A DNA stretch of 12,511 nt, taken from NCBI GenBank assembly GCA_946410505.1, contig CAMKAP010000036.1, positions 1 to 12,511 of the forward strand, in the 5' to 3' direction. The translations under genes and the position numbers were made by a program. This stretch comes from an uncultured Clostridia bacterium. GTDB lineage: Bacteria; Bacillota_A; Clostridia; Oscillospirales; Oscillospiraceae. The notes beneath the pieces are model-generated. The model ran no database searches. It worked only from the letters and a program-made list of their open reading frames with translations, and had not been told where the DNA came from. Below, piece by piece: positions 484-12,511 of this stretch (the stretch's first letter is position 1; every line of letters starts with the position of its first letter).

Positions 484-1683
484 TCAATGCTCCGTCACTT
501 CTTTTGCGCGGTACTGATCCCGAAAAATGCGCGGCGAGACACCCTTAAACTGCTTGAAGATCTTGCCGAAGTAGCTCTGAGACGGAAAGTGGACGTACTC
601 CGCGATCTCCATCAGGGAGAGCTCCGAATACATCAAAAGATTGGCCGCACGAAAGACACGTTCTTCGTTGATATAGTCCTGCAGACACCGGCCTGTCTCC
701 TTCTTGAACAGCTTGGATAAATGGGTGGGACTAATGCCGATGCTCTCGGCGATATCGTCCAGGTATATCTTTTCCCGGTAATGTTTGCGCACGTAATCCT
801 TGGCGCGCTCCACATGGCTGGAGGTCCGGGTTTTTTCCAGCTTCTGCTTGACGCGTACGGTCAGTTCCTCAATGGCGCGGTTGCGGTAGTGCAGCAGATG
901 GGCGGGGTCCTGGGCGCTGTCGCATTTTTGAATGTAATAGCCGCTCAGACGGTAGCCCTCCTCAGGCGGAATCCCGCCCTCAATGGCGGCCCTGGTGCAC
1001 AGGGAGATGCCGATGATGGCCAGGTTCCGCCAGTGGGAAACCTCTGTGCGGGAGAGACGCCCGCTGTCCCGGTCCATGCTCTCAGCCAGGCGGATCGCAT
1101 CCTCCGTACGGCCTTCCCGGATGGCCTGCATCAGCAGCTGCTCCTCATGATAACCGTGACGATAGGAGGCATCATCGTTTTCCGCTTCTTCCTTTAGCAC
1201 AAATTGAACCTGTTCCGTCCGAACGCCCCGTTCACTCTGATTGATCAGCCGATTGAGCTGCATCAATTCCTCATTTTCCAGATTTCCGTTTTTTAACGCG
1301 GAATTGGTCAGAAGGATCATATTCCGGATCTCAGGGAGGGCAAAGCACGGCAAAAGCCTCGCTTCATCGTACTCGATTCCATAGAAAGAATACATCTGCC
1401 GACGCTTGGATGCGCTCAATCGTTCACTGCACATAGGCCCCATATAAAGGAAGCCCTCCCCGGCGTGCAGGGCTGCAAAATATGCACCATCCTTCTCTCT
1501 TAACAGGAAGGGCGCTCTCTGTCCGGCGATACCGGAACGCAGTGCGTCCCTGACACGCGCACACTGCATAAGGGGGCTGTCCTGTATGCTGTCAAAGAAG
1601 GCGACCAGACTGCCGTCCGGCGCTTCATAAACAAGATCCACCTTGATGACGGAGCAGAGGATGCGGATATGATTTTCTGCCAT
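484..1683 (-). CDS. AraC-family transcriptional regulator
   Basis: This 399-residue protein is a probable DNA-binding activator of the neighbouring glycoside genes. The C-terminal ~105 residues (about 290-392) are a typical double helix-turn-helix AraC domain. The first HTH is around 308-329 (DDIAESIGISPTHLSKLFKK) and the second around 356-378 (LMEIAEYVHFPSQSYFGKIF), followed by the family's closing GVSPRIFR. The N-terminal ~285 residues are not a cupin-type AraC sensor. They resemble the poorly characterised helical input region of large Clostridia AraC proteins (for example TEVSHWRNL and LCTRAAIEGG), so the ligand is unknown. The start is supported by GGGGAGGTG placed 5 bases before the ATG. 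The gene is divergent from the rhamnosidase gene. Its promoter region holds one of three copies of a 36-bp motif that also precedes two other operons, so it is the best local candidate for the protein that binds it. Family call is firm; regulon assignment is inference. Confidence 0.93.
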   Translation of the reverse strand: MAENHIRILCSVIKVDLVYEAPDGSLVAFFDSIQDSPLMQCARVRDALRSGIAGQRAPFLLREKDGAYFAALHAGEGFLYMGPMCSERLSASKRRQMYSFYGIEYDEARLLPCFALPEIRNMILLTNSALKNGNLENEELMQLNRLINQSERGVRTEQVQFVLKEEAENDDASYRHGYHEEQLLMQAIREGRTEDAIRLAESMDRDSGRLSRTEVSHWRNLAIIGISLCTRAAIEGGIPPEEGYRLSGYYIQKCDSAQDPAHLLHYRNRAIEELTVRVKQKLEKTRTSSHVERAKDYVRKHYREKIYLDDIAESIGISPTHLSKLFKKETGRCLQDYINEERVFRAANLLMYSELSLMEIAEYVHFPSQSYFGKIFKQFKGVSPRIFRDQYRAKEVTEH

Positions 1684-1712: not shown

Positions 1713-1741
1713 AGCATATCACAGCGAGGCCAAAATGAAAA
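1713..1741 (-). promoter_or_regulatory. predicted promoter of the araC-type gene
   Basis: Reading the minus strand, TTTTCA (complement of 1736-1741) and TATGCT (complement of 1713-1718) are separated by 17 bp. A TG one base before the -10 gives an extended -10. The implied leader before the regulator's ATG at 1683 is about 20-25 bases. The -35 lies inside the 36-bp operator at 1729-1764, so a bound regulator would cover its own promoter, which suggests autoregulation. Prediction from sequence only. Confidence 0.5.
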
Positions 1742-1764
1742 CAAAAAATACAGAAAAACGATAG
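1729..1764 (+). promoter_or_regulatory. operator copy 1 (36-bp motif) before the rhamnosidase gene
   Basis: This is the first of three copies of a motif. From left to right it has GCCAAA (motif positions 1-6), CAAAAA (14-19), ACAGAA (22-27) and TAG (34-36). Compared with copies 2 and 3, 22 of the 36 positions are identical in all three with no gaps. The right end lies exactly 20 bp before the TATGAT -10 hexamer, and its final TAG begins a poor -35. The repeated A-rich CCAAA and CAAAAA elements lie about 12 bp apart, as expected for AraC-type proteins that contact one DNA face over two or more helical turns. Assignment to the adjacent AraC protein is inference. Confidence 0.7.
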
Positions 1765-1790
1765 TCCTTTCCTGTCCCTTGTGGTATGAT
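1762..1790 (+). promoter_or_regulatory. promoter P1 for the rhamnosidase gene
   Basis: An extended -10 (TGG then TATGAT at 1785-1790) sits 17 bp after the weak -35 TAGTCC (1762-1767), which shares only three bases with TTGACA. Transcription would start near 1797, leaving a leader of about 33 bases before the ATG at 1830. The poor -35 overlapped by the operator suggests dependence on an activator. Confidence 0.6.
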
Positions 1791-1829
1791 AGCGGCATGA
1801 TGCTGACGAATGCTGCAGGAGGTCAACGT

Positions 1830-4025
1830 ATGGCTGCTGTCAATCGAGGAAAATGGATCTGTCCCCCGGGAAGCGTATGCGAAGCGATCGATCAAGCACG
1901 GCTCGTTTGCTTCCGAAAGGAGCTCAGTCTTTCCGGCTCAACAGAAAAAATGCCGGTTCGCATCTCGGCGGACGGCCGGTATAAACTCTATGCCAACGGC
2001 AAGCTTGTCTGCTTCGGACCCTGCAAGGGAGACGACAAGCGCCGCTATATGGACGAGCCGGATCTGCGTCCCTACTTGAGACCGGGGCGGAATCTTCTGG
2101 CGGTGGAAGTGCTGCTGGTCGGGAGCGACGCCTGGAACAGCAACCACAGCCTGTTTACCACGGGACTGAACGGCCTGTACCTGGAAGGGATCGCGCCGGA
2201 GGGCTGGCGCTGCCATGCCCGCGATACCGTCCGCTTTTTCGCTGAAGAAGAGGGCTTCTCCCCGCTGCACATACATGAAGAAGCGACCGGAGACCCCGCT
2301 GCGGCCGGATGGAAAGACGCGGATTTCGACGACAGCGCTTGGGATACGGCGCAGCTCTGCGCCGACGAGGACGTTCCGGCGATCCTCCGCGGCGAGAATC
2401 TGCTTCCGCGCCCCATTCCCTTTATGGAGCAGAAGCCGCACGCCTTCACTCTGCCGCTACATACGGTGGCGGCGCATAGCGAAGAGCGCTTTGTTCTGGA
2501 CGCCGGGGAAGAGATGACCGCGTTCCTGACCCTTGCCCTCAGCGGTGGAAAGGGAGCTGTGATCGAGCTGCTGCAGAGCGAGTGCTATGTGATGCCGGAA
2601 GGAAAAGGCCATCGGCTCGACCGTGTGAACGGCCATCTTGAGGGTTACACAGATTCCTATACGGTGGCCGGCTTTGACCGTGAAGTCTATGAGCCGTTCT
2701 GGTTCCGTACCTTCCGTTTCCTGCAGGTGACGATCCGCACGGCGGGGGAGCCGCTGGAGCTGAAGGCCCTGCGCTATGACGAGACAGGCTATCCGCTGGA
2801 GGTCAAAACATCGGTCACGACCTCCGATCCGACGCTTGACCCGATCTGGGACATCAGCCTGCGCACCCTGCGACGGTGCATGCACGACACCTATATGGAC
2901 TGCCCCTTCTATGAGCAGCTGCAGTACGTGCAGGATACCCGCTCGGAGATCCTGTATACCTATGCCGTCTCGGCAGACGATCGGCTGGCCCGGCAGGCGA
3001 TCGACGATTTTGCCTGCTCCCAGCGCCCCGACGGGCTGCTCAACGCCTGCTATCCCAACAAAAACGCCAACGTGATCCCCGGCTTTTCTCTCTACTACAT
3101 CCTCATGCTGCACGATCACATGATGTACTTCGGAGAAAAGGGACTGATCCGGCAGTATCTGCCCACCGTGGAGCGCATCCTGCAGTTCTTTCACAGCCAC
3201 CGCACGCGAAGCGGCCTTGTGGATAAGGTGGGCGGTGTCAACGGGGAGGCGGCGGTATGGTCCTTCATCGACTGGGCCTCGGAGTGGATGCCCACCACCG
3301 GCATGCCGACGGCGGGACTATACGGTCCGCTTACGATGGAAAGCCTACTTTATCTCTACGGCTTGCAGAAGGCTGCGGAGCTGGCGGACTGGATTGGGGA
3401 GACGGCGCTTGCCGGGGAATGGCGCAATCAGGCAGAAACCCTTCGCCTTGCGATTCGACAAGACTGCATGGACGACAGCGGCATGCTCACCGACGGGCCG
3501 GGTCGAACGGAGCTGAGCCAGCAGGCGCAGGTCTTCGGCGTGCTGACCGGGGCACTGACTGAGGAAGAAGGACGGCAAAACCTGTTGCGCACGGTGGAGG
3601 ATCGGACGATCACCCAGTGCACGGTGGCCATGTGCTTCTATCTGTTCCGCGCGCTGGAGAAAACCGGACTCTACGAATATACCGACCGGTATTGGGATAT
3701 CTGGCGCGAGATGGTTCAAAACGGCTGCAGTACCTGCGTGGAATCACCGGGGAGCTATGCCCGCTCCGAGTGCCATGCCTGGGGCTCGCTGGCGCTGTAT
3801 GAGCTGCCGACGGTCATCCTCGGCGTGCGTCCTGCCGCGCCGGGCTATGAGAAGATCGAGGTACACCCGGTTCCCGGCATGCTGACAAGCGCTTCCGGCA
3901 CAGTGCATACGCCGAGAGGTAATCTAAACGTCTCTTGGAAAAAGTCAGAGAGCGGAATCGATCTGCAAATCAGCGGGGACGCGGATGCCGTCCGTAGGAT
4001 CATCCCAAACAAAGAACAAAAATAA
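1830..4025 (+). CDS. GH78 family alpha-L-rhamnosidase-like glycoside hydrolase
   Basis: The 731-residue enzyme is predicted to remove terminal alpha-L-rhamnose from glycosides. No signal peptide is seen, so it is probably cytoplasmic. The N-terminal beta-sandwich part carries the rhamnosidase signature ADGRYKLYANGK (48-59) and GPCKGD (63-68). The (alpha/alpha)6 catalytic region spans about 335-660. It has DCPFYEQLQYVQD (357-369), whose D357, E362 and D369 align with the catalytic-site residues around the general acid of GH78; FIDW (479-482); and CVESPGSYARSECHAW (636-651), whose E638 fits the general-base position. A C-terminal beta domain follows (LGVRPAAPGYEKIEVHP, 664-680). The start is set by AGGAGGT at 1817-1823. 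An in-frame TTG at 1779 lies upstream of the promoter -10 and cannot be the start. Compared with the common DCPxRE...GD motif, Arg is Tyr361 and Gly is Gln368, so it is a divergent member. Rhamnose release is likely but not proven. Confidence 0.85.
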   Translation: MAAVNRGKWICPPGSVCEAIDQARLVCFRKELSLSGSTEKMPVRISADGRYKLYANGKLVCFGPCKGDDKRRYMDEPDLRPYLRPGRNLLAVEVLLVGSDAWNSNHSLFTTGLNGLYLEGIAPEGWRCHARDTVRFFAEEEGFSPLHIHEEATGDPAAAGWKDADFDDSAWDTAQLCADEDVPAILRGENLLPRPIPFMEQKPHAFTLPLHTVAAHSEERFVLDAGEEMTAFLTLALSGGKGAVIELLQSECYVMPEGKGHRLDRVNGHLEGYTDSYTVAGFDREVYEPFWFRTFRFLQVTIRTAGEPLELKALRYDETGYPLEVKTSVTTSDPTLDPIWDISLRTLRRCMHDTYMDCPFYEQLQYVQDTRSEILYTYAVSADDRLARQAIDDFACSQRPDGLLNACYPNKNANVIPGFSLYYILMLHDHMMYFGEKGLIRQYLPTVERILQFFHSHRTRSGLVDKVGGVNGEAAVWSFIDWASEWMPTTGMPTAGLYGPLTMESLLYLYGLQKAAELADWIGETALAGEWRNQAETLRLAIRQDCMDDSGMLTDGPGRTELSQQAQVFGVLTGALTEEEGRQNLLRTVEDRTITQCTVAMCFYLFRALEKTGLYEYTDRYWDIWREMVQNGCSTCVESPGSYARSECHAWGSLALYELPTVILGVRPAAPGYEKIEVHPVPGMLTSASGTVHTPRGNLNVSWKKSESGIDLQISGDADAVRRIIPNKEQK

Positions 4026-4039
4026 CAGAATAACGATAG
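4004..4039 (+). promoter_or_regulatory. operator copy 2 (36-bp motif) before the DUF3237/GH-A operon
   Basis: This is the second copy of the motif: CCCAAA, then CAAAAA, ACAGAA and TAG at the same motif positions as in copies 1 and 3. From ACAGAA onward it is nearly identical to copy 1 (a single difference over 15 bp). Its left part overlaps the last seven codons and the stop of the rhamnosidase gene. Its right end is again exactly 20 bp before a -10 hexamer (TACAAT at 4060-4065). Because part lies in coding sequence, conservation of the A-rich elements is all the more notable. Confidence 0.7.
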
Positions 4040-4065
4040 CAAAATGACTTCCTTTCCCTTACAAT
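4037..4065 (+). promoter_or_regulatory. promoter P2 for the DUF3237/GH-A/esterase operon
   Basis: The -10 is TACAAT (4060-4065), 17 bp after the weak -35 TAGCAA (4037-4042). Expected transcription start is near 4072. The -10 lies in the loop and inner stem of the hairpin at 4041-4085, so the promoter is nested in the terminator of the preceding gene. The leader to the ATG at 4108 is about 36 bases. Confidence 0.55.
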
Positions 4066-4091
4066 AAGGACAAGGAAGTCATTTTATTCTA
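4041..4091 (+). terminator. rho-independent terminator after the rhamnosidase gene
   Basis: A long inverted repeat is centred on 4063. AAAATGACTTCCTT (4041-4054) pairs perfectly with 4072-4085. After two mismatches, CCTTA (4057-4061) pairs with TAAGG (4065-4069) around a 3-base loop, so 19 of 21 positions pair. The A-run on the 5' arm and U-rich stretch on and after the 3' arm (TTTTATTCTATT) fit an intrinsic terminator working in both directions. Transcripts starting at P2 begin at about 4072 and lack the 5' arm, so they should not be terminated by it. Confidence 0.75.
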
Positions 4092-4107
4092 TTGGCAGGA
4101 GGCGGCT

Positions 4108-4542
4108 ATGAAACAGAAACCGGTTATGGATATCAAAATCGAGGCCAACGGCCCGGCAATCCATTTACAAGGCGAAAACGGCGAGGTGCTGATGGTGCCC
4201 TTCAAGGGCAGCGTGAAAAGTGATCTGTTCAACGGCATTGTGGAGCCCTGCGGCGTGGATACCCAGGTCGTCAATGCCGCCCATGTGCGCCATATGTCCG
4301 CCCGCTATATGCTCACCGGCAAGGACAGCACGGGCAAGGATGCGCACATCTTTGTGGAGAACAACGGCTGGTTTGATGATCTCACCAAGACCATGCCCTT
4401 CCACACGGTGCCGACCTTCTATACCGACAGCGTCGCCCTGGCGCCTTACCTGCACCGCAATGCGTTTACCGGGGAGGGTGTGGATGAGACAGACGGCCTG
4501 CACATCTACTTCTATGAGATTGGAGGACAGGTGGATGCATGA
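4108..4542 (+). CDS. DUF3237-like small beta-rich protein
   Basis: A 144-residue protein of unknown function, cytoplasmic by lack of any signal or membrane segment. The middle resembles DUF3237 proteins: GSVKSDLFNGIVEPCGVD (33-50), then ARYMLTGKDSTGKDAHIFVENNG (65-87, described here by its ends) and a late PTFYTD. The length matches that family's usual single beta-barrel domain of about 150 residues. The start is supported by AGGAGG (4097-4102) five bases before the ATG; a second in-frame ATG at 4126 lacks such a site. It is the first gene of the P2 operon, and its last eight bases overlap the start of the next gene (ATGCATGA), so the two are probably translationally coupled and may act together. 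No catalytic residue can be named. The DUF assignment is from recognition of the pattern and could be wrong at subfamily level. Confidence 0.7.
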   Translation: MKQKPVMDIKIEANGPAIHLQGENGEVLMVPFKGSVKSDLFNGIVEPCGVDTQVVNAAHVRHMSARYMLTGKDSTGKDAHIFVENNGWFDDLTKTMPFHTVPTFYTDSVALAPYLHRNAFTGEGVDETDGLHIYFYEIGGQVDA

Positions 4543-5737
4543 GCGTTTTTACGGCGTAGGTGAACCGCTCATTCAGCGCGAGCGCGATCAGGGGATCGAC
4601 GCGGCGGCTTATCTGGATCTTGTCAAGGGCCTGGGCTGCAGCGCCTACCGCAGCTGGATGCATCTGACGGAGTTGCTGGTCGATCCCACGACGCCCAACA
4701 CGGAAGAGGTCGCGCGGCACCGGCGGCTGCTGGACCGTGCGGCGGAGCTGGATATCGAAGTCACAGCCATGAGCCATGAGTGGTTTTTGCCTGCCGGCTG
4801 CAAGCAGCGAAAAGGACACGCGATGCCGAAGCGCGATCTGACTGAGGGAAGCCTGTATATGCGTGCGCTGGAAATGCTCGAACAGAGCTGGTATACCATG
4901 GCGCAGATCTTCCCGCAGGTGTCGATCTGGGAGGTCGGCAATGAGTGGAACCTGGACGCTTTCCTCCATCCAGATGGCTTCCTTGATTCAGACATGTCCG
5001 AACCTTTTACAGCGGACGAGAAGATGGACATTGCCGTAGACATGATGTACTTTTCCGCCCGCGGCATCCGCCTGGGAAATCCAAAAGCCAAGGTTGCTTC
5101 CTTCTCTCCGGCGCTGTCTACTCCCGGCCTGGGCGGGGACATGCCGGACTACCTCCCGGTGATGTACGGCGTGGCCTGGACGCTGGACAAGGTCTACTCC
5201 CGCATCAAGAGCGGAAAATTCTGGTCCACGAACACGGACGACTATTTCGACCTCGTCGCCTGGCACCCCTACGTGTTCACCAACCGTGATGTGCCGGATG
5301 CGGATCTGTTTCTGGATGTTGACGAGCCGGATCAGCTCTGGAAGAGTTACAACGACGCGGCCTGGAAGGTGATGAAAAAGTACGACGACGGCCACAAGCA
5401 GGTGCTGCTCACCGAGTCCGGCTTTACCGACTGCGGCAATCCCGAGTGGGAGAGGCGCTACGCCGGGTACAACAAAAAGATGCTGGAGATCGCACGGGAG
5501 CTGCCCTATGTGCGCACGCTCCACAATTTCCGGCTTCTCAACGAAAATGCCATGCTGCAGCGTGCGGGCATCGAGGACAATCAGATCGGCGGGCTGACGG
5601 AGGTGTATTTCGGCCTCTTCACCGACCCGGAGGACGGCTGCAAACCCCGCGCCAGAGCAAAGGCGATTCAGGAAATGACCGGCAGCACGGAAGATTTGGA
5701 AGAACTTGGCGCGAAAGTCGCGCAGACAAAAAGATAA
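4535..5737 (+). CDS. clan GH-A (TIM-barrel) glycoside hydrolase-like protein, family unassigned
   Basis: The 400-residue protein has the layout of a retaining clan GH-A glycosidase. The strand-4 motif WEVGNEWN (132-139) gives Asn136-Glu137 as the expected acid/base pair. VAWHPY (241-246) matches the His-containing strand of GH5/GH39/GH51-like barrels. VLLTESGF (290-297) gives Glu294 as the expected nucleophile on strand 7. No signal peptide is present. The start at ATG 4535 is supported by GGAGG at 4522-4526. An open reading in the same frame extends far upstream but is a shadow of the preceding gene. It overlaps the DUF3237-like gene by 8 bases and is followed 14 bases later by the esterase. 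I do not recognise a named GH family; GH5- or GH39-like are the nearest in feel. The context suggests cleavage of a plant-type glycoside, but the substrate is unknown. Confidence 0.75.
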   Translation: MHERFYGVGEPLIQRERDQGIDAAAYLDLVKGLGCSAYRSWMHLTELLVDPTTPNTEEVARHRRLLDRAAELDIEVTAMSHEWFLPAGCKQRKGHAMPKRDLTEGSLYMRALEMLEQSWYTMAQIFPQVSIWEVGNEWNLDAFLHPDGFLDSDMSEPFTADEKMDIAVDMMYFSARGIRLGNPKAKVASFSPALSTPGLGGDMPDYLPVMYGVAWTLDKVYSRIKSGKFWSTNTDDYFDLVAWHPYVFTNRDVPDADLFLDVDEPDQLWKSYNDAAWKVMKKYDDGHKQVLLTESGFTDCGNPEWERRYAGYNKKMLEIARELPYVRTLHNFRLLNENAMLQRAGIEDNQIGGLTEVYFGLFTDPEDGCKPRARAKAIQEMTGSTEDLEELGAKVAQTKR

Positions 5738-5751
5738 AAGGGAGGATCACC

Positions 5752-7311
5752 ATGGCAGAGTACATTGTACAGACCAACAGCGGCAAGGTCAGAGGCTACG
5801 AGAGAGACGGCATCGTCGAATACCTGGGCATCCCCTACGCTGAAGCTCCGGTTGGCGCGCTGCGCTTCAAGCGGTCTCTTCCCAAAGCCCCCTGGGAGGG
5901 CGTGTTCGATGCAAAGGAATACGGCTCCCCGGCGGTGCAGTTTGACGAGGGCAAGCCCCGCGGCAGTGAAGACTGTCTGTTCGTGAATGTCCAGCGGCCG
6001 CTGGAGGGCGAAAAGCTGCCGGTCTTCGTTTGGATCCATGGCGGCGGATACAATACGGGCGCTGCCAGCGATGGGATCTACAACGGCAAAGCCTTCGCCC
6101 GGGACGAGCTGGTGTTCGTCTCCTTCCAGTACCGCATGAACGTGCTGGGCTTCTATGACTTCACCACCTTCCCCGGCTGTGAGAATTTTGATTCCAACTG
6201 CGGCCTGAGCGACCAGATTCTGGCGCTTAAGTGGATCCATGAGAACATCGAATTCTTCGGCGGAGACCCGAATCGCGTCACCATCGCCGGCGAATCGGCG
6301 GGCGGTGCCTCCGTGGTCAATATGCTGGCAGTTCCCTCCGTGAAGGGCTGTTTCCAGCAGGCCATTGCCCAGAGCGCCCTGCCCAACTGCGTGACGACTC
6401 ATCAGGTGGCCCGTGCCAACATTGCGCTGTTTCTGGAGGGCATGGGCTGGACTGAGGCGGAGATGGCGGAGAAGCTCCTCACCGGCGATCCCTACAGCTT
6501 CCTCAAGGGCAACAACTATGTGGCCGCCCATCACCAGTATCGCAATCCCGGCATGTTTCTGCCCTCACCGGTGCAGGATGATCTGCTTCCTGTGCGGCCT
6601 ATCGACGCCATCCGCGGCGGCAGTGCCGAGGGTGTGAAGCTCATCATCGGCACCAATATGCACGAAGGCACCATGTTCGTCCATCCGGAGAATACGGGCT
6701 TCCCCAACTCCTGGACCATGATCGCCGAGATGTTGGAGAAGAACAAGCACGCCGACGCGATCCCCGATGTGGTTGGCTTTTATCATCCCTCTGCCCGCGA
6801 CTCTTTTGTGCTGTTCCAGCATCAGAACGACCAGGAGGGCGGGAAATTCGGCGGAAGCGGCGACCACCGGCAGATCGGCGGCGACCCCTTCATCCGCTTT
6901 GCCACAGACTACGCTTTTGAGATGCCCGCCATCAAGGTGGCCATGGGGCAGAAGAAGTACACAGACGACGTGTGGATGTACCGCTACGAGCTTGTCACTG
7001 CCTCCGGCGTTGCCACCGGCTGGAAGGCCAGCCATGCCTTCGAACTGCCCGCCGTTTTTGAAAACAAGGACTTCCATTTCAGTCACTTTGTCTTCGACGG
7101 AGAGCCGGAGGAGGTCTTTGACAAGATCGCAGCCGAAATGCACGGAGACTGGGTGCGCTTTACCAAGACCGGTGAGCCGAATCCCGACTGGGCTCGCTTT
7201 GAGGGCGCCAACTCCCCTGTGCGGATCTTCAACCGCGACACCCGCACCGAGCAGCTGGACCGCCGTCACCTGATGCAGATCTGGGGCGACATGCGGTTCT
7301 ACGAAGTATAA
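5752..7311 (+). CDS. type-B carboxylesterase (alpha/beta hydrolase)
   Basis: A 519-residue serine esterase of the carboxylesterase/cholinesterase family, predicted to hydrolyse carboxylic esters such as acyl groups on a glycoside. It has the oxyanion-hole motif HGGGY (96-100), the EDCLFVNV signature (73-80), and the nucleophile elbow GESAGG with Ser182. Glu305 (in NMHEGTMF) is the expected acid and His428 (in KASHAFELP) the expected base, so the triad is complete. The length is normal for bacterial members (about 500). No signal peptide is seen, unlike many secreted homologues. GGGAGG (5740-5745) precedes the ATG by six bases. It is the third gene of the P2 operon, 14 bases after the GH-A gene. 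No clear terminator follows; operator copy 3 begins 12 bases after its stop, so read-through into the transporter operon is possible. Confidence 0.92.
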   Translation: MAEYIVQTNSGKVRGYERDGIVEYLGIPYAEAPVGALRFKRSLPKAPWEGVFDAKEYGSPAVQFDEGKPRGSEDCLFVNVQRPLEGEKLPVFVWIHGGGYNTGAASDGIYNGKAFARDELVFVSFQYRMNVLGFYDFTTFPGCENFDSNCGLSDQILALKWIHENIEFFGGDPNRVTIAGESAGGASVVNMLAVPSVKGCFQQAIAQSALPNCVTTHQVARANIALFLEGMGWTEAEMAEKLLTGDPYSFLKGNNYVAAHHQYRNPGMFLPSPVQDDLLPVRPIDAIRGGSAEGVKLIIGTNMHEGTMFVHPENTGFPNSWTMIAEMLEKNKHADAIPDVVGFYHPSARDSFVLFQHQNDQEGGKFGGSGDHRQIGGDPFIRFATDYAFEMPAIKVAMGQKKYTDDVWMYRYELVTASGVATGWKASHAFELPAVFENKDFHFSHFVFDGEPEEVFDKIAAEMHGDWVRFTKTGEPNPDWARFEGANSPVRIFNRDTRTEQLDRRHLMQIWGDMRFYEV

Positions 7312-7322
7312 CAACAAGTTGT

Positions 7323-7358
7323 GCCAAAATAAGGGCAAAAATTACAGAATATTTGTAG
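7323..7358 (+). promoter_or_regulatory. operator copy 3 (36-bp motif) before the transporter operon
   Basis: This is the third copy: GCCAAAAT at the left, CAAAAA in the centre, ACAGAATA, then TAG. Its left 27 bp match copy 1 without gaps at 22 positions. The right end is exactly 20 bp before the TATTAT -10 at 7379-7384, the same spacing as in copies 1 and 2. It lies entirely in the gap between the esterase and the transporter. Confidence 0.7.
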
Positions 7359-7384
7359 AACAAAAGTATGCGGCCTGCTATTAT
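7356..7384 (+). promoter_or_regulatory. promoter P3 for the transporter operon
   Basis: An extended -10 (TGC then TATTAT at 7379-7384) is placed 17 bp after the weak -35 TAGAAC (7356-7361). Start of transcription is expected near 7391, giving a leader of about 90 bases. An overlapping TATAAA (7382-7387) is an alternative -10, but it breaks the spacing shared with P1 and P2. Confidence 0.6.
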
Positions 7385-7479: not shown

Positions 7480-8895
7480 ATGGCAAAAGAACTCGGCCTT
7501 GACAAAGACGGCCAGCAAAAGCATCTTCGCCCGGTAGATTATCTTACCGACTCCCTCGGACAGTTCGGTCTGAACTCCATCAACCAACTCACCGGACAGC
7601 TCACCTATTTCTACACCACCAAGGTCGGCCTGGCTTCCGCCACCGTTGCGACGGTCCTGCTGATTTCCAAGATCTTCGACGCAGTCACCGACCTCTTCAT
7701 GGGCAAGATCGTAGACAAGACCAACACCAAGACCGGCAAGGCCCGCCCCTGGCTGCTGCGTATGGTCATCCCCCTGTTCCTGGCCTGCGTGCTGCTGTTC
7801 ACGGTTCCCAAGGGAATGGGCGGCTTCCGCTACGTCTACGCCCTGGTCACTACCGTCTTCGCCTCCGCCATTGTCTACACCGCCATCGCCGTTCCTTACT
7901 ACACCATGATGTCCTATAAGACCCGCAGCTCGGAAGAGAAGGGCAAGATGGGCACCTGGCGTGCGGCTGTCGGCTATGCCATCGGCGTGGCTTGCGGCAT
8001 TGGCTTGATCCCCATCACCGTAGCCCTGGGCGACGATCAGATGGCCTGGGTCAAGTTCGGCGCCATTCTGGGCGTACTCTCCGCGATCTGCCTGTTCATC
8101 ACCTACAAGTTCTCCCGTGAAATCTACCACGACGAGGGCGCCATGGCTGAGAAGGAAGCCAAGGTCGGCATCCTGCAGGGTATCAAGATGCTCCTCACCA
8201 ACAAGTACTGGGTCATCATCACCCTCGTCGGCGTGGCCATGAACATCATGTACGGCGTCATCCTTGTGGCTCCCATGTTCTACGGCTCCATCATCATGGA
8301 TAACCCCGGCTTCTACTCCACCGTCAATACCGTCAATATCTTCCCTTCCGTCATTGGCTTCCTGACCGTCGGCTTCTGGATCAAGAAGTTCGGTCTGACC
8401 GGCACGGCCAAATGGGCCTGCGTGATCGGTGTCATCGGCTGCATTATCCGCATGGCCATGCCCATGAACTCCATCATGTTCCTGGCTGGCGGCTGCCTCA
8501 TGATGTATGCCACCATTCCTCTGATCTCCGTTCTCCCCGCTATGACCCTGAACACCGCCGAGCAGAACATGCAGAAACACGGCGTGCGCATCACCGGTAT
8601 GACAAATGCCTCAAACTCTTTCGTCGGCAAGCTCGGCGGCGGTGTGGGCGGCTCCCTGATCGGCTGGGTTCTGGCCGCGGGCGGATACGACGCTTTCCTC
8701 GCCAAGGGCGCGGGCCTTGCCAACCTGACCGGCGCTCTGAAGGGTTCTGTTTTCGCCCTCAACTCCTACATCCCCCTCGGCATGTTCGTGCTGATCTTCC
8801 TGTTCCTGTTCAAGTATGATTACGAGGAGAAGCTCCCCGCCATCATCAAGGATAACGAGCGGATCAAGGCCGAAATGCTGGCCAAGGGCGAGTAA
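7480..8895 (+). CDS. GPH-family (MelB-like) glycoside:cation symporter
   Basis: A 471-residue integral membrane protein of the glycoside-pentoside-hexuronide family (major facilitator fold, about 12 membrane helices), predicted to import a sugar conjugate with a cation. The family signature is plain: KIFDAVTDLFMGKIVDKTNT (64-83), then KTGKARPW (84-91). Asp67 and Asp71 match the cation-site aspartates D55 and D59 of melibiose permease. By my alignment from memory, the two MelB aspartates that bind galactoside (D19 and D124) correspond to Asn32 and Ala137 here, which argues for a non-galactoside substrate. AGGAGG (7466-7471) precedes the ATG by eight bases. It is the first gene after P3 and the only transporter in the window, and lies between stripping enzymes on both sides, so it is the likely uptake route for the intact glycoside. 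Confidence 0.93.
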   Translation: MAKELGLDKDGQQKHLRPVDYLTDSLGQFGLNSINQLTGQLTYFYTTKVGLASATVATVLLISKIFDAVTDLFMGKIVDKTNTKTGKARPWLLRMVIPLFLACVLLFTVPKGMGGFRYVYALVTTVFASAIVYTAIAVPYYTMMSYKTRSSEEKGKMGTWRAAVGYAIGVACGIGLIPITVALGDDQMAWVKFGAILGVLSAICLFITYKFSREIYHDEGAMAEKEAKVGILQGIKMLLTNKYWVIITLVGVAMNIMYGVILVAPMFYGSIIMDNPGFYSTVNTVNIFPSVIGFLTVGFWIKKFGLTGTAKWACVIGVIGCIIRMAMPMNSIMFLAGGCLMMYATIPLISVLPAMTLNTAEQNMQKHGVRITGMTNASNSFVGKLGGGVGGSLIGWVLAAGGYDAFLAKGAGLANLTGALKGSVFALNSYIPLGMFVLIFLFLFKYDYEEKLPAIIKDNERIKAEMLAKGE

Positions 8896-8966: not shown

Positions 8967-10295
8967 ATGTTCTGTCAGTTCCCCGAAAACTTTATCTGGG
9001 GCGTAGCCACCGCTGCCCAGCAGATCGAAGGCGCGGCCTTTGAGGACGGGCGCGGGGCATCCATCTGGGACGTGTTCAGCCGCCTGCCCGGCAAGATCAA
9101 GAACGGCGGCGTCCCGGACGTCTGCTGCGACTCCTATCACAACATCGAGCGGGACGTGGCTCTTCTCAAGGATTTGGGCGTAAAAGCCTACCGCCTGTCC
9201 TTCTCCTGGTCCCGCATCCTTCCGGACGGGATCGGGGAAGTCAATCCCGCAGGGATCGACTACTACAAACGCCTGCTTACCGCATTGAAGGAAGCGGGCA
9301 TCCAGGTAAACGCCACGATCTACCACTGGGATCTGCCCTATGCCCTGCAGATAAAGGGCGGCTTCGGCAACCGGGAGATCCTCGGCTGGTACTTGAACTA
9401 CGCTTCCATCCTCTTTGACAACTTCGGCGATCTGGTGGACTACTGGGTCACCTTCAACGAGCCCATCGCGACCTATGTGGGCCATGCCAAGGGCTTCTTC
9501 GCCCCGGGCCTGACGGACGAGAAATATGCCCGCCAGTGCATCCATCATCTGCTGCTCTGCCACAGCGAGGCGGTCAAGCTCTTCCGTTCACGGCAGCTGC
9601 CCGGTCAGATCGGTGTGGTGGTGGACGTGTGGAAGCACTATCCCGCCCGGCCGGACAACGTCGAGGACGTTGCCAGCGCCGTGAGGAACAACGAGATTGA
9701 GGGCTACGGCATGTTCCTGCACCCGCTCTTCCTCGGCGGCTACAGCGAGGAGCTGACGGCCTATCTGGAAGAGACCGGTTTCATGCCGAAAATGGAAAAG
9801 GGCGACATGAAAACCATCTGCCAGAAGCTGGACTTCTATGGGCTGAATTTTTATAATGGCCTGTATGATAACGCTGATGAGTACCGCGCTGCTGCCGAGG
9901 GCGGCAACTTCCAGAACCGCCCGGAGCAGCATCTGGAGGCGGTCTACGACGTGCTGCATATGCTGGCGGAAGACTACAAAATCGACATTCCCATCTATAT
10001 CACCGAAAACGGCGTGGCCCAGGACGACGGCCCGGACCGGGAGGCGATCCTGAACGACGACGAGCGTATCGCCTATGTGTCGGAGACCCTGCGCCATGTG
10101 CGCCGGGCCATGGACGACGGGATTGACGTGCGCGGCTATTACCTCTGGTCGCTGATGGATAATTTTGAGTGGTCGGCTGGCTTTGCCGCCCGCTTCGGCC
10201 TGTACTATACGGACTACGAAAAGATGGAGCTTATCCCCAAAAAGAGTGTCGGCTGGTACCGGGATGTGATCCGAAACAATGGATTTGAGGATTGA
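8967..10295 (+). CDS. GH1 family beta-glucosidase or 6-phospho-beta-glucosidase-like enzyme
   Basis: A 442-residue retaining glycosidase with the complete GH1 signature. The N-terminal FIWGVATAAQQIEG (9-22) includes the sugar-contacting Gln19. YHWDLP is at 119-124. TFNEP (162-166) has the acid/base Glu165, and ITENG (345-349) has the nucleophile Glu347. NFEW (399-402) carries the Glu401 that typically binds the 4- and 6-hydroxyls of the glycone; WSAGFAARFGL after it lacks the Ser-Lys-Tyr phosphate-binding pattern of 6-phospho enzymes as I recall it, favouring a plain beta-glucosidase. Length is normal. The start at 8967 is set by GGAGGA (8955-8960); an in-frame GTG at 8925 lies inside the terminator stem and is rejected. 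It is followed 22 bases later by the oxidoreductase gene. It would remove glucose exposed after de-rhamnosylation; the exact substrate is unknown. Confidence 0.92.
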   Translation: MFCQFPENFIWGVATAAQQIEGAAFEDGRGASIWDVFSRLPGKIKNGGVPDVCCDSYHNIERDVALLKDLGVKAYRLSFSWSRILPDGIGEVNPAGIDYYKRLLTALKEAGIQVNATIYHWDLPYALQIKGGFGNREILGWYLNYASILFDNFGDLVDYWVTFNEPIATYVGHAKGFFAPGLTDEKYARQCIHHLLLCHSEAVKLFRSRQLPGQIGVVVDVWKHYPARPDNVEDVASAVRNNEIEGYGMFLHPLFLGGYSEELTAYLEETGFMPKMEKGDMKTICQKLDFYGLNFYNGLYDNADEYRAAAEGGNFQNRPEQHLEAVYDVLHMLAEDYKIDIPIYITENGVAQDDGPDREAILNDDERIAYVSETLRHVRRAMDDGIDVRGYYLWSLMDNFEWSAGFAARFGLYYTDYEKMELIPKKSVGWYRDVIRNNGFED

Positions 10296-10317: not shown

Positions 10318-11421
10318 ATGAAACCAGTGAAAACCGCTGTTATCGGCTGCGGCGCCATCAGTGATATCTATCTGAGCAATATGATCAACAAGTACGCCAC
10401 GCTGGACGTGCTGGCCTGCTGCGCCAGCCACCGGGAAAACGCGGAAAAGAAGGCCGCCCAATACGGCATCCGCCCCGCCGCCACCGACGAGATTCTGGCA
10501 GATCCTGAAGTCGAGCTGGTCGTGGTGCTCACCCCGGCGCCCAGCCACTATGAACTGGTGAAAAAGGCGCTGCTGGCCGGGAAGCACGTGTATACCGAAA
10601 AGCCCATCGCCACGGAACTCTGGCAGGCGAAGGAGCTGGTTTCCCTGGCGAAAGAAAAGGGCCTGCTGCTGGGCGCGGCGCCGGAGACCTTCCTGGGCAG
10701 CCTCCTTCAGACCGGGCGCAAGGCGCTGGATGAGGGGCTGATCGGCGAAGTCACGAGCTTCCACGTGGCAGCCAACCGGGATTTGACCGTGCTGGCCAGC
10801 CTCTTCAAGTTCCTGCGGCAGCCGGGCGGCGGTATCTGCTACGACTATGGCGTGTATTATCTCACGGCGCTGGTCTCCCTGCTGGGGCCGATGGCGGAGG
10901 TCTACGCCAAAGTGGGCAACCATGCAAAGACCCGCCCCAACGTGGCGCCCTTCAGCCCGGAGTACGGCCAGGACTATGTCTACGACAACGAGGCGCAGGT
11001 CAACGCCATCCTCACAACAAAGAGCGGCGTGACCGGCACCTTCTCCCTTAACGGCGACAGCGCGATGCAGGATCAGGCCTATTTCACCATCCAGGGCACC
11101 AAGGGCATTTTACAGCTGGGGGACGCCAACCAGTTCGGCGGCGAGGCACGCTATCTGCCCAACAATCCCCGTGAGGCCGTATGGCAGACCCTGGAGCCGG
11201 CGTCGACCTTATCGGATAACTGCCGGGGGCTCGGCGTGGCGGACATGGCAAGATGCATCCGTGAGGGCGGCACCCCTCAGGTCAGCGCCGAGATGCCCTG
11301 CCATGTGCTGGATATCATCGAGAAAATCATGGAGAGCGGAAAGAACGGACGGACTTGTACGACAGAGACCGTCTGTGACCGCCCCGCAGCATTTGAGAAC
11401 TGGAAGGAGCTGCTGAAATGA
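10318..11421 (+). CDS. Gfo/Idh/MocA family NAD(P)-dependent oxidoreductase
   Basis: A 367-residue cytoplasmic dehydrogenase of the glucose-fructose oxidoreductase/inositol dehydrogenase family. The Rossmann nucleotide site is VIGCGAIS (8-15), and TEKPIAT (93-99) contains the conserved catalytic Lys95. The second-domain signature GGGICYDYGVYYLTAL (170-185) gives Asp176, but the usual His of the DxGxH motif is Tyr180, as in one branch of the family. Members oxidise sugar or polyol hydroxyls, in some cases at C3 of a glucoside. GGAGG (10309-10313) precedes the ATG at 10318. An in-frame ATG at 10279 lies inside the GH1 gene and has no ribosome binding site. The stop overlaps the next start (ATGA), implying coupled translation. 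The substrate is not determinable; released glucose/rhamnose or the glycoside itself are candidates. Confidence 0.92.
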   Translation: MKPVKTAVIGCGAISDIYLSNMINKYATLDVLACCASHRENAEKKAAQYGIRPAATDEILADPEVELVVVLTPAPSHYELVKKALLAGKHVYTEKPIATELWQAKELVSLAKEKGLLLGAAPETFLGSLLQTGRKALDEGLIGEVTSFHVAANRDLTVLASLFKFLRQPGGGICYDYGVYYLTALVSLLGPMAEVYAKVGNHAKTRPNVAPFSPEYGQDYVYDNEAQVNAILTTKSGVTGTFSLNGDSAMQDQAYFTIQGTKGILQLGDANQFGGEARYLPNNPREAVWQTLEPASTLSDNCRGLGVADMARCIREGGTPQVSAEMPCHVLDIIEKIMESGKNGRTCTTETVCDRPAAFENWKELLK

Positions 11422-11918
11422 TCGTACAGGCCAATTCTCATCTGGGCTTCGTGTGCCATGATTTGGACAAAAGCGTGCAGTTTTACGAGGAGATCCTGGG
11501 CTGCAAAGAGAAATTCAGTCTGTATTACGGCGACATGATCCCGCCAACCGAGGAGGAGCGCGCGCAGATCCCTCCCGAAGTGATGGCGCGTCTGGAACAA
11601 TTAAAGGACGTCCGCTGGATCGTCTATCTGGAGTGGATGGACGGCTATTTCATTGAGCTCTTCAATGAGGTGGACGCCCACATCGATAACCCCTATAATC
11701 CGGCCAATTACGGCTATACACATTTTTCTTTTGTGGTGGACGATATTCAGGTCTTTTATCAAGAGCTCATGGAAAAAGGCGAAGAGGATATCATTGATGT
11801 GAAGCCGCAGTTCAACTGCGATCACACCTGGGCCATGTGGTTCCATGACCCGGACGGCAACCGCATCGAAGTTCACCAGTATACGGAACGTTCGTTTGAA
11901 CTGATTGGAAGAAACTAA
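11418..11918 (+). CDS. VOC (glyoxalase/bleomycin-resistance fold) metalloprotein
   Basis: A 166-residue two-module vicinal-oxygen-chelate protein. The four metal-ligand positions of the superfamily are present: His8 (NSHLGFVCHD), Glu80 (YFIELFN), His102 (YTHFSFVVDD) and Glu151 (DPDGNRIEVHQYT). It is therefore expected to bind a divalent metal and act as an isomerase/epimerase, lyase or related enzyme, not as a metal-free drug-binding form. A loop of about 30 residues (40-68, acidic and proline-rich) between beta strands of the first module is longer than in short glyoxalases. The gene overlaps the preceding oxidoreductase by four bases and precedes the flavin reductase by 13, so the three form a tight unit. 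VOC proteins in isoflavone-reducing bacteria include a dihydrodaidzein racemase; whether this one acts on an aglycone is speculation. Confidence 0.88.
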   Translation: MIVQANSHLGFVCHDLDKSVQFYEEILGCKEKFSLYYGDMIPPTEEERAQIPPEVMARLEQLKDVRWIVYLEWMDGYFIELFNEVDAHIDNPYNPANYGYTHFSFVVDDIQVFYQELMEKGEEDIIDVKPQFNCDHTWAMWFHDPDGNRIEVHQYTERSFELIGRN

Positions 11919-11931
11919 GGAGGAAAACGCC

Positions 11932-12511
11932 ATGGAACGCAAGTACCCGAACCTATGTAAGCCCATCCGCATCGGCAACGTCTGGTATCGCAACCGCATG
12001 TTCTCCACGCCCATGGGCGGCACGGACATCGAACTGGACGGCTGCATCGGCCCCAAGTCCCAGGCTTTCTATGAATACCGCGCCAAGGGCGGCTGCGCGG
12101 CGGTCACCATCTCGGAGCTGATGGTGCACCCCAGCGACGGCAGCCACGCCTACCGCCTGGACGAGAGCATTTTGAACTCTCTGCCTAAGGCAACCTACAC
12201 AGCCGACGCGATCCGCCGCCACGGCGCCATCCCCAGTGCAGAGCTTTCTCACTCCGGCATGTTCGCCGGCACGTACATGACCGACAAAAACAAGCAGCAC
12301 GGCCTGAACCAGTGGAGCGCCGACGACGGCGTGCGGGCTGACGGCGTGCCCTACAAGGCCATGAGCAAGGAAATGATCGCCGAGATCGTTGCGGCCTACG
12401 GCCATGTGGCGGGCCTCTGCAAGCGGGCGGGCTTTGAGATGCTGATGGTCCACGGCGGCCACGGCTGGCTCATCAACCAGTTCCTCTCTCCCATGTTCAA
12501 CCACCGCACCG
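11932..12511 (+). CDS. Old Yellow Enzyme-type NADH:flavin oxidoreductase (partial, cut by the window edge)
   Basis: The first 193 residues of an FMN-dependent TIM-barrel oxidoreductase; the gene continues beyond the right edge. Recognisable parts are the opening NLCKPIRIGNVWYRNRMFSTPM (7-28, described by its ends), the strand AELSHSG (103-109), and the active-site segment VHGGHGWLINQFLSP (173-187) with His174 and His177. That segment is usually followed by NxRxDxYGG in the family. Close relatives are often fused to a C-terminal FAD/NAD(P) domain (about 640-670 residues, as in 2,4-dienoyl-CoA reductase, BaiCD/BaiH and daidzein reductase); whether this one is cannot be seen. AAGGAGG lies eight bases before the ATG. 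Likely role: reduction of an activated C=C bond, possibly in a plant aglycone. Family firm, substrate inferred from context. Confidence 0.9.
   Translation, partial: MERKYPNLCKPIRIGNVWYRNRMFSTPMGGTDIELDGCIGPKSQAFYEYRAKGGCAAVTISELMVHPSDGSHAYRLDESILNSLPKATYTADAIRRHGAIPSAELSHSGMFAGTYMTDKNKQHGLNQWSADDGVRADGVPYKAMSKEMIAEIVAAYGHVAGLCKRAGFEMLMVHGGHGWLINQFLSPMFNHRT

Follow-up and report, generated by a model that had tools for sequence, protein, structure and literature searches.

We analyzed a 12,511-nt stretch of DNA, hereafter the window, from contig CAMKAP010000036.1 (GCA_946410505.1) of an uncultured Clostridia bacterium of the Oscillospiraceae. A minus-strand gene for an AraC-family regulator lies at one side of a plus-strand cluster consisting of a rhamnosidase gene, an operon encoding DUF3237, GH-A-like and carboxylesterase proteins, and an operon encoding GPH, GH1, Gfo/Idh/MocA, VOC and enoate-reductase proteins. 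Each of these three transcription units is preceded by a copy of a 36-bp element, which is very probably the operator of the AraC protein. The features of this regulatory system are as follows.

484–1683, minus strand: AraC-family regulator, 399 aa, with two C-terminal helix-turn-helix (HTH) motifs (Pfam); proposed binder
1713–1721, minus strand: putative extended -10 of araC (TGATATGCT), with its -35 region inside operator 1
1729–1764, plus strand: operator 1 (half-sites 1731–1743 and 1751–1763), rhamnosidase promoter
1785–1790, plus strand: -10 of promoter 1, TATGAT
4004–4039, plus strand: operator 2 (half-sites 4006–4018 and 4026–4038); the rhamnosidase open reading frame (ORF) ends within it, covering its first 22 bases
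4041–4085, plus strand: hairpin of 19 pairs (4041–4054 with 4072–4085; 4057–4061 with 4065–4069), putative terminator of the rhamnosidase mRNA
4060–4065, plus strand: -10 of promoter 2, TACAAT, in the tip of the hairpin
7323–7358, plus strand: operator 3 (half-sites 7325–7337 and 7345–7357), transporter operon
7379–7384, plus strand: -10 of promoter 3, TATTAT

A sequence-only reading had aligned 36-mers at 1729, 4004 and 7323 without gaps and placed each exactly 20 bp from a -10 hexamer. Both claims were borne out: 22 of the 36 positions are invariant, and the spacing is exact at all three promoters. Within the window, a consensus of two sites ranks the remaining site first with 22 matches, and the best non-overlapping places reach 15–17. 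The same reading described -35 hexamers that begin with TAG and match TTGACA at three bases. The hexamers at a 17-bp spacer (TAGTCC, TAGCAA and TAGAAC) do start this way and each match at 3/6 positions, but the TAG is better read as part of a binding half-site than as a -35 remnant, because its G is a T in 35/53 sites.

Structure and conservation of the operator

We searched the AraC protein against GTDB contigs, which yielded 53 loci with best-segment identities of 34–98%, and used the 22 invariant positions to scan these loci along with the window. This gave 66 matches scoring at least 16 outside genes, or 62 without the window, of which 60 were non-redundant, although these 60 still contain a few frame-shifted copies of one site. 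The -10 played no part in the selection, and TAnnnT nonetheless stood at offset 20 in 46/60 matches, whereas any other offset between 8 and 40 had it in 0–6/60. The spacing between motif and -10 is not due to chance. The commonest letters across sites are CAAAATAAGRACAAAAATAACAAAATAANRATAT, followed by N20 and TATAAT.

The self-similarity of the motif profile peaks at a shift of 20 (+8.8 bits), with +1.1 at a shift of 11 and negative values at all other shifts between 5 and 25. The motif is therefore a 13-bp half-site (consensus CAAAATAAGRAYA) repeated in the same direction with a 20-bp period, occupying positions 2–14 and 22–34 of the 36-mer, counted from 0. CA opens the two half-sites in 39/46 and 43/46 sites, and YA closes them in 44/46 and 45/46. 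At a 17-bp spacer, none of the 46 sites exceeds 3/6 matches to TTGACA. The elements thus have the layout of class II AraC/XylS promoters, with two same-direction half-sites about 20–21 bp apart and the proximal one placed at a constant distance from the -10, where it covers a -35 that is weak or missing. The pattern of an activator overlapping the -35, proposed from the window alone, takes this concrete form.

XylS, whose half-sites recur with a 21-bp period, is one of the closest known cases: at its Pm promoter, as here, two direct-repeat half-sites each have a CA box and, 6 bp on, another box that ends in A. In the passages that define it, the XylS site is TGCA-N6-GGNTA, present twice (PMC5481539, PMC9722767), and the title of a reference in PMC5481539 states that the XylS and RNA polymerase sites overlap. 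The present element differs in its 20-bp period, its boxes (nnCA and nRAYA rather than TGCA and GGNTA), its A-rich filling, and its setting among rhamnoside genes of Clostridia. The AraC-family rhamnose regulators predicted for Bacillales, Bacteroides and Enterococcus (PMC3870299) likewise have direct-repeat operators and rhamnose-related targets and came from comparative genomics, but their periodicity is 21 bp rather than 20, and the regulon here consists of genes for glycosidases, esterase, transporter and reductase. This likeness is one of description and not a letter-by-letter motif match, and by NCBIfam cut-offs the window protein is neither RhaS nor RhaR. The same limit applies to the carbohydrate regulons of Caldicellulosiruptor bescii, where, in the section concerned (PMC8579813), tandem AraC-type sites upstream of promoter elements are read as activator sites of local regulators; organism, regulators and targets all differ. 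Passages of PMC3572039 contained no comparable motif, and no description of this AraC clade or regulon was recognized among the titles and abstract openings of open-licence literature, an absence that proves little given that restriction to open-licence papers.

We next scored upstream regions with a matrix built leaving out one locus at a time; the scores are not fully independent, because near relatives stayed in the matrix and the sites had been picked with the window's motif. A score of at least 15 was found upstream of 32/36 GPH, 17/19 DUF3237, 16/34 GH-like and 11/26 rhamnosidase genes. It was found upstream of 4/33 carboxylesterase, 2/11 old yellow enzyme (OYE), 0/9 GH1 and 0/4 Gfo/Idh/MocA genes, and of 3/60 AraC-type genes, 6/341 other genes and 2/1722 shuffled upstream regions. 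The carboxylesterase, GH-like, OYE, GH1, Gfo/Idh/MocA and VOC genes that fell under 15 all scored below zero and are mostly internal to operons. A genome scan for the motif, as the earlier reading had suggested, gave no sign of it at many unrelated promoters: a 28-mer allowing at most three mismatches occurred 19 times in 21 genomes (~67 Mb), against once for the reversed pattern. Eighteen of the 19 occurrences lay on contigs of regulator loci, and the remaining one lies upstream of an OYE gene from the same family (L126).

The motif is also kept beside related araC genes down to ~34% identity, and AraC relatives of ~34–47% identity still have an adjoining operator. In two such loci, L043 and L055 (Streptococcus sp.), an operator precedes a GPH gene followed by a gene for a GH78-type rhamnosidase of 927–932 aa. 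Relatives of GH1 occur in L042, L043 and L047, and genes of the metallo-beta-lactamase fold in L042, L043 and L045; L043 also has a ROK gene. These loci suggest that a wider AraC clade, associated with rhamnosides, has this operator. Separately, weaker operator-like matches lie beside other AraC genes (27–29% identical) in L104 and L129, one of them divergent from a GPH gene, and the operator type may extend to AraC paralogues.

The regulator and its regulon

The regulator belongs to the AraC/XylS family by its two C-terminal HTH motifs, at residues ~299–389, which match Pfam HTH_18 (66 bits; cut-off 33.6) and HTH_AraC (54.1 bits; cut-off 26.6, in two stretches) and are conserved across 29 aligned regulators. 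Its N-terminal ~280 residues, where a separate effector/dimerization region would be expected in this family, match no Pfam family and are predicted to form an alpha/beta and a helical part (predicted template-modeling score 0.40). Among NCBIfam models, RhaS (49.7 bits vs 288) and RhaR (32.2 vs 363 and 29 vs 525) were rejected, as was the YSIRK-targeted surface antigen regulator TIGR04094 (114.3 bits vs 200), even though residues 61–388 match the latter.

To relate motif and regulator, we drew 199 genomes around the nearest relative, called the regulator at E ≤ 1e-40, and searched the same genomes with a model, based on sequence alone, that covers motif, spacer and -10. The regulator was present in 13. 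At E ≤ 1e-4, the model gave 25 matches, all in 11 of these 13 genomes and none in the 186 genomes without the regulator. Seven of the 11 had supplied training sites; the other four (G065, G070, G111 and G122, the last two alike) had not, and all have matches. This co-occurrence supports the earlier proposal that the adjacent AraC protein is the natural binder. Operators and araC remain neighbors in most loci, and three target genes on other contigs are also preceded by an operator: an OYE gene on a 66-kb contig of G016 whose flanking genes on both sides match no window protein, and an OYE gene (L126) and a rhamnosidase gene (L127) of G019. In G065 an operator is located at the end of a contig carrying GPH, GH1, Gfo/Idh/MocA and OYE genes (L123). 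As these are draft genomes, some of the other-contig cases could adjoin the regulator locus; that in G016 (L125) is the clearest. The small regulon envisaged at the outset, of rhamnosidase, GH-A/esterase and transporter operons, is supported, with the addition that a DUF3237 gene begins the second operon.

Operator 1 also appears to serve the araC promoter. At 26 places where araC diverges from an operator, several of them in near relatives, TGnTAnnnT on the araC strand stands 9–11 bp from the operator edge in nine and exactly 21 bp from it in another nine, two classes about one helical turn apart; an extended -10 lies elsewhere in 5/26 and is lacking in 3/26. From this arrangement we infer that araC would be made constitutively and would repress itself on binding operator 1.

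In our interpretation, which we hold with high confidence, the adjacent AraC protein has the 36-bp repeat as its operator and would act as a class II activator of a three-transcript rhamnoside regulon. Two monomers, or one dimer, would occupy the two same-direction 13-bp half-sites, so that the proximal half-site, 21 bp before the -10, would replace the missing -35, and the bound regulator would contact RNA polymerase and activate the promoter. The regulon would comprise the rhamnosidase gene, the DUF3237/GH-A/carboxylesterase operon and the GPH transporter/GH1/oxidoreductase operon, whose products would import and degrade plant compounds that carry rhamnose. Gene content suggests rutin-like rhamnosyl-glucosides as substrates, and the inducer is probably a rhamnosyl-glucoside or its product. 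Direct binding and activation by AraC are what the sequence comparisons point to.

Several observations weigh against this interpretation. Matches of 4–5/6 to TTGACA occur in five sites at a 15-bp spacer and in two at a 16-bp spacer, and TG stands one base before the -10 in 18/46 promoters; given these seven hexamers and the TG, some basal activity without the activator is possible. In the model search, filters were strict and no genome had more than 26 candidates scored, and loosening the threshold brought in genomes that lack the regulator: at E ≤ 1e-3 there were 28 matches, one of them in a genome without the regulator (G182, 4.2e-4), and at E ≤ 0.05, 67/199 genomes were matched, including 56/186 without the regulator. 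Two regulator genomes, G050 and G088, had no match at E ≤ 0.05, the regulator there having been matched over 120–145 residues only. Because the operator is common to AraC proteins that are only ~34–47% identical, crosstalk is possible in some genomes. One genome (G006) carries two copies of the system on different contigs (L031 and L014), both with operators, which makes crosstalk likely there.

We considered three other explanations for the repeat. The same AraC protein could bind it and mainly repress, or act both ways, by covering the -35 region. The overlap of site and -35 region and the TG before many -10s fit this view, and repression is likely at araC, whose divergent promoter has its -35 region under or right beside the operator. 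At the target genes, though, the absence of any site above 3/6 to TTGACA leaves little promoter to repress, and a fixed 20-bp distance to the -10 is expected of a protein that contacts RNA polymerase and is unneeded by a blocker; we regard predominant repression as quite improbable. We give still less credence to an unlinked AraC- or YesN-type protein that binds the motif while the adjacent araC is a bystander. Seven further AraC-type matches exist in G001, and the model match at E 4.2e-4 lies next to a different AraC relative (L104) in a genome that lacks the orthologue, yet matches at E ≤ 1e-4 are limited to genomes with this regulator, operators adjoin araC in most loci, and the extended -10 of araC keeps one of two fixed distances to the operator in 18/26 places. 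The 59% A content of the motif and its position upstream of the -10 might suggest an UP element, or an A-tract feature common to promoters in general, in place of a specific operator. This is hardly credible in view of the CA that starts most half-sites, the 20-bp repeat, the concentration of the motif on one set of target genes, and its absence at E ≤ 1e-4 from all 186 related genomes lacking the regulator.

A hairpin overlapping promoter 2

Promoter 2 is unusual in that operator 2 starts within the rhamnosidase gene, 22 bp short of the end of its stop codon, and the promoter's spacer, -10 and start region fold as a hairpin with the -10 at the tip. The hairpin has a predicted energy of -22.4 kcal/mol (z -6.4 relative to 60 letter shuffles) and is followed by a T-rich tail to about 4093, so that a stable hairpin and a T-rich tract lie just 3' of a gene, as in an intrinsic terminator. 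A simple terminator scan missed it, the loop and stem limits of that scan excluding such a hairpin. Transcription starts ~7 bp after a -10, which places the probable start of promoter 2 at the second arm; only read-through RNA from promoter 1 would then hold the whole hairpin, an argument for its being a terminator of the rhamnosidase mRNA.

We compared 21 junctions between a rhamnosidase gene and the next operon. Twelve (10 distinct sequences) have the -10-centered hairpin; for three of the loci examined (L029, L132 and L133), the matrix had misplaced the operator because the segment began inside it, and operators and hairpins were read from other alignments. In five junctions (four distinct), the rhamnosidase stop lies 47–260 bp before the operator, a terminator-like hairpin occupies the gap, and the -10 carries runs of at most 5 pairs. 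Four have neither form. In L052 the operator overlaps the rhamnosidase end without a long -10-centered hairpin, and in L048, L051 and L057 the genes are in tandem with no operator at the rhamnosidase junction. For each of the 10 distinct sequences, the best hairpin register has its center no more than ~1 bp from the -10, and the center is the same even where the stem is changed (L012) or almost wholly different (L029). Among seven sequences that align without shifts, 94.7% of cells pair and five pairs change on both sides, a number reached in 1/500 shuffles and compared with 0–2 in slid controls; the count of further pair types was not unusual (74/500 shuffles).

We searched other promoters for hairpins of this form as well. 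Runs of 9–23 pairs centered on the -10 were counted in 6/7 rhamnosidase junctions, compared with none of at least 9 pairs (best 8) in 17 carboxylesterase-to-GPH junctions. Two of 55 operators away from upstream gene ends have such runs, of 11 (L022) and 9 pairs (L061); a 9–11-pair run alone is not decisive, because 56/4450 shuffles reach it too. Strong hairpins that overlap the spacer or -10 off-center were also seen at L040 (7411–7474) and at the GPH promoter of L054.

The promoter 2 hairpin is apparently the terminator of the rhamnosidase mRNA. The inverted repeat, centered as it is on the -10, could instead be a palindromic operator for a second protein, such as a repressor sitting over the -10, with no terminator involved. 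We think this unlikely: stem letters differ while pairing is kept (L012, L029, L124 and L013), the arms exceed those of usual operators, a T-rich tail is present (weakest in L009, L011 and L131), and in the four distinct long-gap loci the gap holds a terminator-like hairpin and the -10 lacks a long one.

Tentatively, with the odds against it, the terminator reading can be extended to a three-in-one element, in which the operator lies over the 3' end of the upstream gene, the spacer is a terminator arm and the -10 is the loop, and in which transcription interference couples the two transcripts. Polymerase from promoter 1 would cross the operator and -10 and terminate at about +1 to +20 of promoter 2, and rhamnosidase transcription would thereby clear and throttle promoter 2; alternatively, the bound activator would be a roadblock to that polymerase. 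Either way, the doses of the two transcripts would be coupled, and selection would hold the hairpin centered on the -10 while its letters change. An inter-operon terminator that overlaps the next promoter is described between tufB and secE of Salmonella in the passage of PMC7055797 concerned. Promoter 2 has its -10 at the hairpin tip and an operator over upstream coding sequence, which may set it apart from that layout.

Gene content and meaning

The protein-coding genes of the cluster, all on the plus strand, are the following.

1830–4025: alpha-L-rhamnosidase, GH78 type (Pfam Bac_rhamnosid6H, Bac_rhamnosid_C and Bac_rhamnosid)
4108–4542: DUF3237 protein, first gene of operon 2 (Pfam DUF3237, 45.5 bits)
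4535–5737: GH-A clan (TIM-barrel) glycosidase-like protein without a Pfam family (structure model and Foldseek)
5752–7311: type B carboxylesterase (Pfam COesterase, 308 bits)
7480–8895: GPH-type sugar:cation symporter (Pfam MFS_2, 191 bits; TIGR00792, 221.9 bits, slightly under its cut-off of 231.35)
8967–10295: GH1 beta-glucosidase-like protein (Pfam Glyco_hydro_1, 476 bits)
10318–11421: Gfo/Idh/MocA oxidoreductase (Pfam)
11418–11918: VOC/glyoxalase-fold protein (Pfam)
11932–12510: OYE/2-enoate-reductase type protein, truncated by the window end (Pfam)

Neither a Pfam match nor a PDB sequence match at E ≤ 1 was found for the 400-aa GH-A-like protein. Its AlphaFold model (predicted local distance difference test score 83) has PslG, GH1 and GH5 enzymes as top Foldseek matches (best E 4.8e-11, template-modeling (TM) score 0.60), and membership of the GH-A clan is supported by this predicted fold; as clan folds were matched only at TM ~0.6 or less among the best rows, we claim no substrate. 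The 21 other copies aligned are 69–96% identical to the window's protein. The gene is present in 11/102 genomes of the genus, all 11 with the AraC regulator, and in a class-wide sampling it was found in 1/391 genomes, namely G001 itself. The best PDB matches of the OYE-type relative in L009 (647 aa) are NCR and 2,4-dienoyl-CoA reductase; flavonoid rhamnosidases and reductases are reported in related gut bacteria in the part of PMC11170127 that deals with them. Relatives of the source bacterium inhabit gut and rumen. At the window's other end, positions 1–480 have 40% G+C, compared with 53–62% in the adjoining cluster, and a single ORF of 80 aa, with none larger.

The switch described here is of a familiar kind, of which this operator and regulon are a well-supported and well-defined further example. 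The two most surprising features are a promoter that lies within an apparent terminator and an operator that the araC promoter has in common with promoter 1. Embedding a promoter in a terminator makes for a compact arrangement, where transcribing one gene should interfere with the next, and the loci with separate terminators are natural controls for the embedded form. For an AraC clade present in gut and rumen Clostridia, the analysis supplies a precise operator and regulon, and the operator is a means of finding co-regulated enzymes, including the GH-A protein without a Pfam family and the reductase, whether or not these lie next to each other. A pathway of rhamnoside degradation thereby becomes testable.

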